Virus record (IMG/VR): IMGVR_UViG_3300043466_001519
Location: 1-64,000 of that record
Direction: 5' to 3' (one strand)
Source: a virus
Length of the DNA stretch: 64,000 bases
Numbering within the stretch: position 1 is the stretch's first letter; each line of letters opens with the position of its first letter. This document shows positions 23,775-29,618 of this stretch, piece after piece. The notes below the pieces were generated by a model. That model was not told where the DNA came from and searched no databases. It worked only from the letters and a program-made list of their open reading frames with translations. Made by a program: the position numbers and the translations under genes.

Positions 23775-23808
23775 AAAAATCCCTACACACTTGAGACATG
23801 TGTAGGGA
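23775..23808 (-). terminator. terminator downstream of tmRNA
   Basis: TCCCTACACA and TGTGTAGGGA form a perfect 10-bp stem with a 9-base loop, followed on the minus strand by UUUUU. It lies 38 bases after the mature tmRNA 3' end and is a convincing rho-independent terminator for that transcript. Confidence 0.85.
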
Positions 23809-23845: not shown

Positions 23846-24232
23846 TGGAGCTAGAGGGAATTGAACCCTCGTCCAAAATTATTTTCAAAAATACAATTTA
23901 TACAGCTTTTTTGATGTATTTTTTAAGTTGGAAACATCATTCAACTAGGATCGACTGATAACAGTCGAGAAACCACCACTCTGTTTAATCTAACAGAGAA
24001 ATCTTTAACTTAGGCTGCTAATTCAAATTCAACAATGTCATTTGATTTAACTTCAGTACCACCATTTAAAATGTTGTGTACTACAGTCATGTTAGCTACG
24101 ATTTGTGCGTTGTCTCCTTGAGATACTACACTGTTTGTGTTTTTGCCATTTAATTATATTCATCTTAGTTTACAGTTATCTCTCTGGCTGATTGTATTAA
24201 TTACTGGTAACCTGTCAAAACCTGTTAGCCCC
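23846..24232 (-). ncRNA. ssrA: tmRNA with long predicted tag frame
   Basis: Mature ends pair: GGGGCTA at the 5' end (24232) with TAGCTCC near the 3' end, and discriminator A (23846); CCA is not encoded. The 5' part GGTTTTGACAGG and the T-arm GAGGG-TTCAATT-CCCTC are typical of tmRNA. A P2 helix is seen as AATACAAT pairing with ATTGTATT near the two ends. The tag frame ends ...VEFELAA then TAA (24010-24012), matching the LAA-type degrons. The frame stays open back to 24153; a GGA at 24117 would give a 35-residue tag starting GDNAQ. Known tags are often 8-30 residues, so this is long, and the resume codon is not certain. Hairpins after the stop fit the usual pseudoknot region. Length is 387 nt. 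It would rescue stalled ribosomes and mark products for degradation, with a phage-specific tag. Confidence 0.85.
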
Positions 24233-24560
24233 ATTTCCCTCATGTGAGGGCACTTATCAATTAGTTGTGTTGTTGACCAATGATCAACTTATTGAGCACC
24301 CTCTTTCTTATCAACAGCATCGGTTGACATAGCTATCCAAAGAGTAGGGTCAAGCTGAGAACTCATTACGTGAGTAGAGATCCTGATGACTCTCTTTTTA
24401 TAGGACATTGCTTTCTCAAGGCAACTCACGTTCTACCATTACTGATAGTATCTTTGATAGTTTCTCAAGGTACAAGTTATGCACACTATCAGGTTCAATG
24501 TTTAGCCTTTAGCTTCTAACAGATTATCAGTTCTGACGCTTTACACAGCTTAGCTATAAA
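24233..24560 (-). ncRNA. structured non-coding RNA upstream of tmRNA
   Basis: About 330 bases between a strong promoter and the tmRNA 5' end have no credible gene. On the minus strand several stems are visible: CTGATAGT with ACTATCAG, competing with a nearby second ACTATCA; TTGC/GCAA around a CTTGAGAAA loop; ACTCA/TGAGT; GTTGA/TCAAC; and CCCTCA/TGAGGG just before tmRNA. CCTTGAGAAA occurs twice, about 60 bases apart. It may be a leader that is processed off, or a separate structured RNA. It does not match RNase P or tRNA patterns that I know. Confidence 0.5.
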
Positions 24561-24566
24561 TCCCTG

Positions 24567-24598
24567 CAAATATAATTCACAGGGACTAATAAAACAAA
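24567..24598 (-). promoter_or_regulatory. promoter of the leader-tmRNA transcript
   Basis: On the minus strand TTTG (24595-24598), a 20-base spacer and TATATTTG (24567-24574) match the Bacteroidota TTTG/TAnnTTTG promoter exactly in both boxes. It lies right after the stop of the VWA gene, so the RNA region has its own promoter. Confidence 0.75.
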
Positions 24599-24601
24599 CA
24601 A

Positions 24602-25996
24602 TTAACTCTTAATCTCTTGTCTTCCTGCTTCTTTAGAATAACTGTAAACTTTTAAGTCATACGTAACTTCTATTTGTTTACCATCTGTAGCAAGACAAAG
24701 ATCTTTTAGTTCATCACTGAACTCCATCAATGATACAGCATTAACTTTATATGGAAATGCATCTGTACCAATACTATCCTGACCATCATTTATCACTAAT
24801 ATTTCTGGTTTTTCTTCAGATAGGTCTACATCAAGATTACACAATCTTCTAGATTGAATTTCATTAGCAATATGTTCAACCATATCACCAACAGCTGTAG
24901 TGCCACCATTTGGATCATTAGAAAAGGTTTGCCAAAAGTTAATTACATCTTCTCTATTCTTGATGTGTTGAAAATGTAATTGATCTGTATCATATACAAA
25001 ATAACTAAAGAACACTTCAGCTTCTCCTTTCATAACATATCTAAACCTGTCGATTAATATAGCATTAACCCACACTTGTTTTTCTGTCTCATTCATACTT
25101 CCTGAATAATCTAGAATAATAACAATCTTTTGAATCTGTTCTTTTCTATCAACAGGTACACTAACAGTAAGATCTTTGTTCAAGAATTTAGTTCTAAAGT
25201 TTGGATACACCTTCTGCATTAGATTCATCATATGAATTTGAGAATAATCTCTCATAATCATAGTAGAATACTGATCAGAATTAGCTACAATCTTTTCAGA
25301 TATTTCTTTCTCCACTTTGAACTCAGATCCAAACTTACCTACAAGAGATAGATGATTCATAATTTCCATCTTTCTGTTTTTACTAAGCTCATTAAGATCT
25401 AATTGTTCATTGATTGTTGGATCAAAATATAGTTCTCTATCAAAGTCTAATCCTTTAGTCATATCTGTATCATCTTCACTACTATTACTATGTTCTTTAT
25501 CATTATTCTGTAACTTCAGATAAATAGAAATAGCTTGTTCTAATGGAGAAAATCCAGGAATGAACTGATCATATATACTATCGTATAAAGATTTCTTTTG
25601 TGCAATAGCACCTTTATCTTCATCAGATAGATTATCATAATCTGCATATCGCTCAATTAGATATTCTTTCTCATCAATCATCTTGAAATAACACACACGT
25701 GCTAGTTCTTTGATTGTATCAACAGATGATTGTTTAGGAGCTCTCACTTTCTTTCTAATCTCTGCAGCAGTTGGTGTTAGATAGTTAACAGGATCTTTAA
25801 CAACAAGATCTTCATTGTTATCACTACTCCCATAGTCCCATGTATAAGAGAATGATGACCAACCTGATTTAGACCATCCACCACCTCCATATTTACTCTT
25901 CCAACCACCAGTAGTCTTTTTAGGACTATAGGTTGGGGCATAATAACTACCATAATAGTCGTCATCATACCCATCATCCCATAATTTTTTTGCCAT
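24602..25996 (-). CDS. VWA (CoxE/CobT-like) protein paired with MoxR ATPase
   Basis: The 464-residue protein has a low-complexity Gly/Tyr/Ser-rich N-terminus (about residues 1-60), a helical middle, and a von Willebrand A domain beginning near residue 290 with IVIILDYSGSMNE (DxSxS MIDAS). Further on are NGGTTAVGDMVEHI (the MIDAS Thr loop) and EILVINDGQDS. MIDAS residues appear intact, so metal-dependent ligand binding is expected. It is preceded, three bases upstream, by a MoxR-type AAA+ gene. Such pairs usually act as chaperone-like machines that remodel or insert metals into a partner, but the partner here is unknown. Confidence 0.85.
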   Translation of the reverse strand: MAKKLWDDGYDDDYYGSYYAPTYSPKKTTGGWKSKYGGGGWSKSGWSSFSYTWDYGSSDNNEDLVVKDPVNYLTPTAAEIRKKVRAPKQSSVDTIKELARVCYFKMIDEKEYLIERYADYDNLSDEDKGAIAQKKSLYDSIYDQFIPGFSPLEQAISIYLKLQNNDKEHSNSSEDDTDMTKGLDFDRELYFDPTINEQLDLNELSKNRKMEIMNHLSLVGKFGSEFKVEKEISEKIVANSDQYSTMIMRDYSQIHMMNLMQKVYPNFRTKFLNKDLTVSVPVDRKEQIQKIVIILDYSGSMNETEKQVWVNAILIDRFRYVMKGEAEVFFSYFVYDTDQLHFQHIKNREDVINFWQTFSNDPNGGTTAVGDMVEHIANEIQSRRLCNLDVDLSEEKPEILVINDGQDSIGTDAFPYKVNAVSLMEFSDELKDLCLATDGKQIEVTYDLKVYSYSKEAGRQEIKS

Positions 25997-25998
25997 AA

Positions 25999-27324
25999 TT
26001 ATACAAATGAAGCAATAGTTAAGTTTTTCTCAAATTTCTCAACAGCAGATGTAGCTGCTTTAACAAGTTGTGCATGTACATGTGCAACATCATCACCTAC
26101 AGTTAGGCCTTTGATATCAGCTAATTGTTTCTTAAGTGAACCAATAGCATCTTTATGCATCTTTTCATCATCTCTACTTACCAATGGCAGGTTAGTTAGA
26201 GTTTCGATGCTATATGTAATAGCTGCAGACAAGTCTCTAAACTTGATTGTAGATTCAAACTTCTTGATTGCTTCAGCAATTAAAGAAGGCTTTTTAGCAA
26301 ACTCTGCAATGAATGATAAAGACTCTGGTCCACATTCATCATACACTTGATATGCTGTTACAGCAACACGAGGACTAATAGTAATACCATTCTTAGCATA
26401 CTCTTGTAATAAATAAGGAATCACTGGATCCACTTCTCCTTCACCAAACTTACTCTCAAGCAACTTGTTGTAGCTGATTTCTGTGTAGTTGTCCCATATA
26501 ACATTAAGTTCTAATGGAAAACGCTCCATCAATGCTTTTAATGACATGTTCTTAGAGAATTCATCACGAGTTCTATTAGTACAACAGATGATGAACTTGG
26601 TGTTGATAGGAAATATCTGTGTACCATTTCTGAATACACCACTAGATAGAATGTCTTTCAATTGCTCTAAGATGAAATCAGGAGCATCAAACAACTCCTC
26701 GAAGATAACATATTCATGATTCATGAATGAATTGTGTACAAGATATTCAATCTTACCTGTTGTTTCGAATGTTGGTATATCAAGACCACCAAACAATCTG
26801 TCTGTAGTCATACCTGTACCCATAGTTTGGATGAAAGGCTCAATACCTTTTGCTTTTAAGAAGTCAAGAGTTATCTCTGATTTACCATGTCCACCTGGAC
26901 CATACAAGATAACATTCTTAGCTGTAGAAAATCCTACATTTAATATGCTAACTGTTTTGTCCATGAATACGAATTTCTCTTCTACTGGATTCTTTTTTGC
27001 TGTTGTTTTTGCTGTTTTTGCCATTGTTTTCTTTGTTTTTAAGGAGTTTAATTGTTTTACTTGTTCTAATGTTTCTTCGATGTTTACTTCTGGTTCTTCT
27101 ATAACATCATCTGGTTCAAAATGCCAATTGTCAATTCTGAAACTTATGCGTTTTTCAATATATATATTATATTTATCTGGAAGTTCTTGACCTAGATATT
27201 TATTCATAGCACCATCATCAGCCCAACCTGATGGATGACCACGTAAATTACCTGCCCATGAATCATTATTCCAACAACCATCATCTTGAAACTCTTCTTT
27301 AGTTTTAAATCTATATTTCTTCAT
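25999..27324 (-). CDS. MoxR-type AAA+ ATPase with N-terminal MNKYLGQ module
   Basis: The 441-residue protein has an AAA+ core from about residue 115: Walker A YGPGGHGKSE near 142, Walker B-like HEYVIFEELFDAP near 207, sensor 1 KFIICCTNRTRDEF near 247, and SLKALMERFPL with the arginine-finger-type ER. Before it, residues 1-80 carry YRFKTKEEF, MNKYLGQELPDKYN and WHFEPDD, a module shared with the 406-residue protein at 30064-31284. An internal ATG at MAKTAKTTAKKN (about residue 100) could start an ATPase without the module. The partner VWA gene follows directly. Confidence 0.85.
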   Translation of the reverse strand: MKKYRFKTKEEFQDDGCWNNDSWAGNLRGHPSGWADDGAMNKYLGQELPDKYNIYIEKRISFRIDNWHFEPDDVIEEPEVNIEETLEQVKQLNSLKTKKTMAKTAKTTAKKNPVEEKFVFMDKTVSILNVGFSTAKNVILYGPGGHGKSEITLDFLKAKGIEPFIQTMGTGMTTDRLFGGLDIPTFETTGKIEYLVHNSFMNHEYVIFEELFDAPDFILEQLKDILSSGVFRNGTQIFPINTKFIICCTNRTRDEFSKNMSLKALMERFPLELNVIWDNYTEISYNKLLESKFGEGEVDPVIPYLLQEYAKNGITISPRVAVTAYQVYDECGPESLSFIAEFAKKPSLIAEAIKKFESTIKFRDLSAAITYSIETLTNLPLVSRDDEKMHKDAIGSLKKQLADIKGLTVGDDVAHVHAQLVKAATSAVEKFEKNLTIASFV

Positions 27325-29498: not shown

Positions 29499-29524
29499 GT
29501 TATTTAATGTTTATTAAGGATTAG

Positions 29525-29618
29525 TTCCAGAGACAGGATTCGAACCTGTAAATAGATTTATTTGTCATATTAGTCCAACCCACATTGTGGCTGCGTCTAC
29601 CAATTTCGCCACTCTGGA
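29525..29618 (-). tRNA. class II tRNA-like gene, Leu-type D arm, anticodon not assignable
   Basis: The acceptor stem TCCAGAG/CTCTGGA is perfect, with discriminator A (29525) and no encoded CCA. The D arm TGGCGAAATTGGTAGACGC is the sequence typical of tRNA-Leu. The T arm ACAGG-TTCGAAT-CCTGT is perfect. A variable-arm hairpin AAATA-AATC-TATTT fits class II. The region between D arm and variable arm has CCAC-AAT-GTGG instead of a 5-bp stem and 7-base loop, and the expected U33 is missing, so no anticodon is reliable. It may be degenerate, or carry an insertion. Confidence 0.7.

Follow-up and report, generated by a model that had tools for sequence, protein, structure and literature searches.

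Background

The tag encoded by a tmRNA is usually a short degron of about ten residues (PMC11915505). In the 2025 tmRNA database, tags most often have ten residues; this database holds 79 phage sequences and places all group I introns of tmRNAs in the T loop (PMC11915505). An earlier list of phage tmRNAs names mycobacteriophages Bxz1, Wildcat and DS6A, and Bacillus phage G (PMC4131195). With the locus described here, these catalogued RNAs share a tmRNA gene situated on a phage genome. A long or conserved tag motif is not mentioned in the text of PMC11915505 and PMC4131195 as consulted, and a search of the open-access literature, which is no proof of absence, returned no published description of such phage tags. 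The DS6A tmRNA lacks a tag frame, whereas a tag frame is present and under selection here; thus, the RNA is not of the CDS-less inhibitory DS6A type. The tmRNA of Cellulophaga phage Calle_1 (PMC8776804) carries the tag GNNTNAVNAQIEANMEAVNAILNLEVAVGV and is a member of the group described below, but was annotated merely as tmRNA, and that paper mentions one tmRNA gene only.

Among bacteria, the long ssrA tags of Mycoplasma and Mesoplasma are recognised by Lon (PMC8138137, citing Gur and Sauer 2008a). They resemble the present tag in unusual length and sequence and set a precedent for altered protease specificity, the likeness being an analogy and not a sequence comparison. They are bacterial and occur in organisms without ClpXP, whereas the present tag is viral.

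The window analysed is a stretch of 64,000 nucleotides taken from IMG/VR virus record IMGVR_UViG_3300043466_001519, which contains 113,985 bases.

Identification of the tmRNA gene

A complete tmRNA was detected on the minus strand (24232-23846) by both ARAGORN and the Rfam model RF00023, the latter matching over the complete model (positions 1-374) with 72.2 bits (E 3.9e-26), where the gathering score is 47. Relatives score 58-88 bits with the same model. The Rfam alignment covers the pseudoknot region, with low posterior in its middle part. The initial annotation had proposed a phage tmRNA at 23846-24232, to be checked by a covariance search, in which a poor score would have counted against it; the proposal is borne out by both programs. 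Its ends are exact for the mature RNA of 387 nt without CCA, which extends from G1 at 24232 to the discriminator A73 at 23846, and the paired ends, the T arm and a frame ending in ELAA before TAA were all found as described. Together with the covariation of the tRNA-like domain (TLD) in relatives, this makes the existence of the tmRNA itself virtually certain.

The acceptor stem is formed by GGGGCUA (24226-24232, minus strand) and UAGCUCC (23847-23853), the latter followed by the discriminator A (together 23846-23853). The T arm, GAGGG-UUCAAUU-CCCUC, occupies 23854-23870 on the minus strand, and all five of its stem pairs have compensatory changes across the relatives. The alanine identity element G3-U70 is present, and together with A73 it was found in all 60 distinct tRNA-like domains collected, despite 19 different acceptor-stem pairings; CCA is not encoded in 59 of these 60 phage relatives. 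In 38 distinct domains, each of the 456 pair cells was a standard pair (100%, compared to 73% in shuffled sequences and no more than 63% when structures were slid), a percentage that is inflated because the 60 domains had been chosen for good pairing (≥ 6/7 and ≥ 4/5 pairs). Such a choice cannot yield many different complementary pairs, and compensatory changes were seen at 9 of the 12 pairs; hence, a functional and chargeable tRNA-like domain is well supported by the alignment. Between acceptor stem and tag, a conserved hairpin CAG-AGAGAUAA-CUG (24173-24186, minus strand) covaries in the relatives, where CGG/CCG, CCG/CGG and CUAG/CUAG stems have both sides changed.

Apart from the tmRNA, ARAGORN reported a tRNA at window positions 29524-29618, which has an unreadable anticodon and no Rfam support and is probably false.

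Reading frame of the tag

The tag frame comprises 45 codons on the minus strand (24013-24147), from the resume codon GGC (24147-24145) to the stop codon TAA (24012-24010), and encodes (Ala)-GKNTNSVVSQGDNAQIVANMTVVHNILNGGTEVKSNDIVEFELAA. The resume codon was assigned by homology, by the TTAAA[TC] context shared with the hosts and by an in-frame stop codon just 5' of GGC. In the relatives, the frame nearly always begins with GGN or GAC directly behind TTAAAT, TTAAAC, ATAAAT or GTAATT. In Bacteroidota hosts, the hexamer preceding the resume codon of a GENNYALAA-type tag was TTAAAC in 45, TTAATT in 26 and TTAAAT in 22 of 146 cases. Two shorter readings, a start at GGA 24117 giving 35 codons and the ARAGORN call at GGT 24063 giving the 17-residue tag GGTEVKSNDIVEFELAA, were rejected on the family alignment and the host resume-codon context. 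The former had been suggested initially and was wrong, and the unusual tag length that had been claimed with it was understated. ARAGORN shortens the tags of several relatives likewise.

As in other tmRNAs, the resume frame ends in a hydrophobic C-terminus ahead of the stop codon. The degron-like LAA is encoded at 24013-24021 (minus strand). Of the 98 distinct tags, 91 have Ala-Ala at their terminus and 7 have VA or GV. Tags of the group have 24-50 residues, with a median of 35.

Comparison with host tmRNA

An ssrA gene was found in 57 of the 61 Flavobacteriaceae genomes sampled, and the host tag at readable loci is GENNYALAA or a near variant of nine codons. Phage and host RNAs share the tRNA-like domain with G3-U70, the TTAAA[CT] context (-6) before GGN, the Ala-Ala end of the tag and the match to RF00023. 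The phage RNA differs in the hairpin CAG-AGAGAUAA-CUG, in the unencoded CCA of nearly all relatives and in a tag about five times as long, to which a conserved helical core is added. The window tag is therefore not of the short GENNYALAA type, differing in both length and sequence. Identity with a normal short host tag had been named at the outset as an outcome that would speak against a special phage tag; the comparison gave a tag that is neither short nor identical to that of the host. As the hosts possess their own ssrA with a GENNYALAA-type tag, the phage RNA is not a copy of the host gene.

Conservation of the tag core

For the family analysis, 85 distinct tags were gathered via the RNA motif 5' of the tag and not via the tag sequence itself. 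The core Q[IVL]xANMxxV[FHYN][SN][LI][LI] (broader form Q..ANM..[VA]..[LI][LIM]) is present in 84 of them, with I or V as the predominant residue after Q; a single relative (L041) lacks it. In the window, this core reads QIVANMTVVHNIL (24067-24105, minus strand).

Codon usage within the core varies at invariant residues: alanine is written GCT, GCA, GCC or GCG, asparagine AAC or AAT, valine GTA, GTT or GTG, leucine and isoleucine with many codons, and the invariant glutamine also with varied synonymous codons. Nei-Gojobori calculations over all pairs give a dN/dS of 0.61 for the N-terminal part, 0.20 for the core, 1.29 for the linker and 0.28 for the C-terminal end; it falls to 0.10 at the conserved core positions (pS 0.69). 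Because the pairs are phylogenetically non-independent, these ratios are descriptive, but the contrast between adjoining regions of one molecule is unaffected. With pS 0.65-0.69, the core has the highest synonymous diversity of all tag regions. These substitution patterns indicate that the core, unlike the linker next to it, is under protein-level selection.

The core lies 2-14 residues after the start and 8-24 residues before the end of the tag. Since its distance to both ends varies, it behaves as a portable motif, as would be the case for a movable docking motif. Differing N- and C-terminal halves are found combined around ANM; for instance, QVVHNILNTKTSIKTEMLIAA is found behind both DKNTIAQTR and GKDQVS. 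AlphaFold2, run on the single sequence of the window tag, predicted one helix covering tag residues 10-27 (mean pLDDT 75). The predicted helix is amphipathic, with a moderate helical hydrophobic moment of 0.26 in the window core and a family mean of 0.34 compared to 0.24 in shuffled sequences. A search for known domains in the tag gave one insignificant match in Pfam and none in the PDB.

Distribution among phages

The DNA pattern CAGAGAGATAACTG..AAACTAAG, situated just 5' of the tag, was matched in at least 119 IMG/VR contigs. Among 84,980 bacterial and archaeal genomes it had no match, for which reason the idea that the exact motif came from bacteria was rejected; the group is apparently restricted to viruses. 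The initial statement that phage-borne tmRNAs are uncommon does not hold for this group. Scanning with the tag peptide yielded 98 confirmed stretches; all those inspected are in a tmRNA-like context, including hairpin stems with both sides changed.

Relatives without annotation or with a wrong one were found by blastn in Cellulophaga phages phi14:2 (Crassvirales) and phi38:1, phi40:1 and Calle (Pervagoviridae), and in phages of F. psychrophilum, where the tag occurs in 29 records. In phi14:2 and phi40:1, hypothetical open reading frames are annotated over the tmRNA. The group thus spans crAss-like phages, including the window phage, Fipvunavirus and Pervagoviridae.

The window phage has in common with phi14:2 the genes for DNA polymerase, DnaB, primase, uracil-DNA glycosylase, an SNF2 helicase, terminase, portal and a giant putative RNA polymerase protein, most of which are also shared with Flavobacterium phage FpV4. 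Based on these common genes, the window phage is classed as crAss-like and Bacteroidota-infecting, and its host is probably a flavobacterium. RIIA- and RIIB-like genes were also noted in this crAss-like phage (window 1997-5575).

Probable promoter, leader and terminator

A probable Bacteroidota-type promoter, TTTG-N20-TATATTTG, is located at 24567-24598 on the minus strand, as judged by its sequence match and by the relatives, several of which (L042, L084, L092 and L106) have the promoter-like element P directly ahead of the tmRNA. The general pattern TTTG-N15-21-TANNTTTG has 11 matches in the whole window versus 5.6 expected, a number reached by 1 of 100 shuffles.

Between promoter and tmRNA, the leader (24236-24557, minus strand) contains the conserved structured modules M1, M2a, M2b, M3a and M3b. 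The 370 nt upstream of the tmRNA are a module mosaic of fixed orientation, in the order P, M1, M2a, M2b, M3a, M3b, of which dozens of phage contigs carry varying subsets, always on one strand. Paired changes support the module folds; in M2b, ACGTGAGT/ACTCACGT is replaced by TGTGTTGT/ACAACACA. Over this region, the tmRNA is the only Rfam family to pass its cut-off. M1 was found in 35 viral contigs, in many of which no tmRNA was detected, and stands beside tRNA-Ala in Elemovirus. Downstream, the tmRNA is followed by an intrinsic terminator (23780-23808, minus strand). Directly upstream of the RNA cluster (window 24602-27324) are genes for a MoxR-like AAA ATPase (25999-27324) and for a 464-residue protein without Pfam match.

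Proposed function and alternative explanations

The reading that we favour by a narrow measure is a working phage tmRNA whose tag combines an Ala-Ala degron with an inserted helix, on which a host protease or adaptor would dock. The tmRNA would be transcribed from the Bacteroidota-type promoter together with the leader of small RNA modules, charged with alanine by the host AlaRS and bound by the host SmpB. By trans-translation on ribosomes that stall in the course of infection, it would give the stalled products a 46-residue tag, made up of Ala and the 45 encoded residues. This tag would retain the C-terminal Ala-Ala degron and gain the amphipathic helix Q-[IV]-x-A-N-M-x-x-V-x-x-[LI]-[LI], to which a host AAA+ protease (e.g. 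Lon, ClpXP) or an adaptor may dock; products tagged by the phage would then be cleared faster, or by another route, than products with the host tag. For the docking step, the chances are roughly even. Four carriers from different phage families were compared (G000, phi14:2, FpV4 and phi38:1) and had no gene in common, so that a phage-encoded partner shared by all carriers was dismissed; as the window phage also has no SmpB, the partners are probably encoded by the host, and a host factor is the more likely docking partner.

The helix could instead protect or redirect the tagged proteins, acting in assembly, in membrane or chaperone binding or in evasion of ClpXP, with the phage gaining by keeping stalled products or sequestering host factors. 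This is unlikely, though it deserves some weight: amphipathic helices often mediate assembly, GroEL is annotated in some carriers, and the few tags ending in VA or GV depart from the degron. Against it stand the Ala-Ala end of the great majority of tags and the purifying selection at the C-terminal end. Because that end is conserved, proteolysis with an added docking helix is favoured over protection, and the selection acting on the last two alanines points to breakdown by a modified route more than to protection alone. We consider it improbable that competition with the host tmRNA, or its replacement, is the main role of the phage tmRNA and that tag length matters in the ribosome and not for docking. 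Helices can fold inside the ribosomal exit tunnel, which tags of this length would be long enough to fill. However, the distance of the core to resume codon and stop codon is not fixed, so that its tunnel position would differ between phages, and a mere need for length would leave the conservation of Q, A, N and M unexplained.

Conservation of the core as RNA, either as a structure or as an internal start at the invariant ATG of ANM, is disfavoured and highly improbable, since synonymous diversity peaks in the core, Q, A and N ahead of the ATG are as invariant as M, and tmRNA is the only Rfam family that passes its cut-off. Hardly any credence is given to the RNA being a passenger or relic, i.e. 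a host tmRNA copy that serves as integration site or lies in a tRNA array and whose tag drifts. Integration-site copies have been discussed for phage tmRNAs (PMC11590407), and tRNA clusters adjoin the tmRNA in some relatives (L017). A drifting copy, however, is at odds with selection on both the tRNA-like domain and the tag, with the absence of the 5' motif from the 84,980 bacterial and archaeal genomes and with the short-tag tmRNA that the hosts keep for themselves.

The near-constancy of the helix-like core in about a hundred related viruses suggests that the virus alters the fate of half-made proteins during infection. Whether Bacteroidota phages encode a class of tags with a dedicated amphipathic recognition helix, mosaic around the invariant ANM core, that reprogram the fate of stalled proteins in infected cells by sending them to some protease, adaptor or compartment unused by the host tag, we regard as evenly balanced. 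Compared to the usual degron, the tags of this group are long and contain an internal motif selected as protein, probably a new degron or docking peptide for Bacteroidota. The question of why phages carry a tmRNA becomes directly testable, as cultured Cellulophaga phages are among the carriers; the prediction is an altered tag function and not just a changed number of rescued ribosomes. Annotation tools overlook or shorten such tags.

Introns and further RNAs in relatives

The tmRNA of the window has no group I intron. In nine relatives (L043, L046, L106, L111, L126, L294, L355, L361 and L367), an insertion follows UU in the T loop; in L043, L046, L106 and L111 it is a group I intron according to Rfam. 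L111 and L294 are close relatives of the window tmRNA. The insertion point is apparently subsite 3, according to the numbering as interpreted here, and PMC11915505 gives this subsite from Bacteroidia bacteria only.

In the crAss-like phage cr125_1 (L007, 1286-1890), ARAGORN predicted a permuted tmRNA, the 5' end of which is overlapped by a RAGATH-9 match of 154 bits. Phage cr128_1 (L006, 1501-1533) contains 33 nt with 94% identity to the tmRNA segment right after the tag stop codon, located in an open frame that precedes a group I intron; this similarity may be due to chance. A Hatchet ribozyme (75 bits) was detected at 3304-3454 of L112, a contig which also carries a tmRNA of this group.
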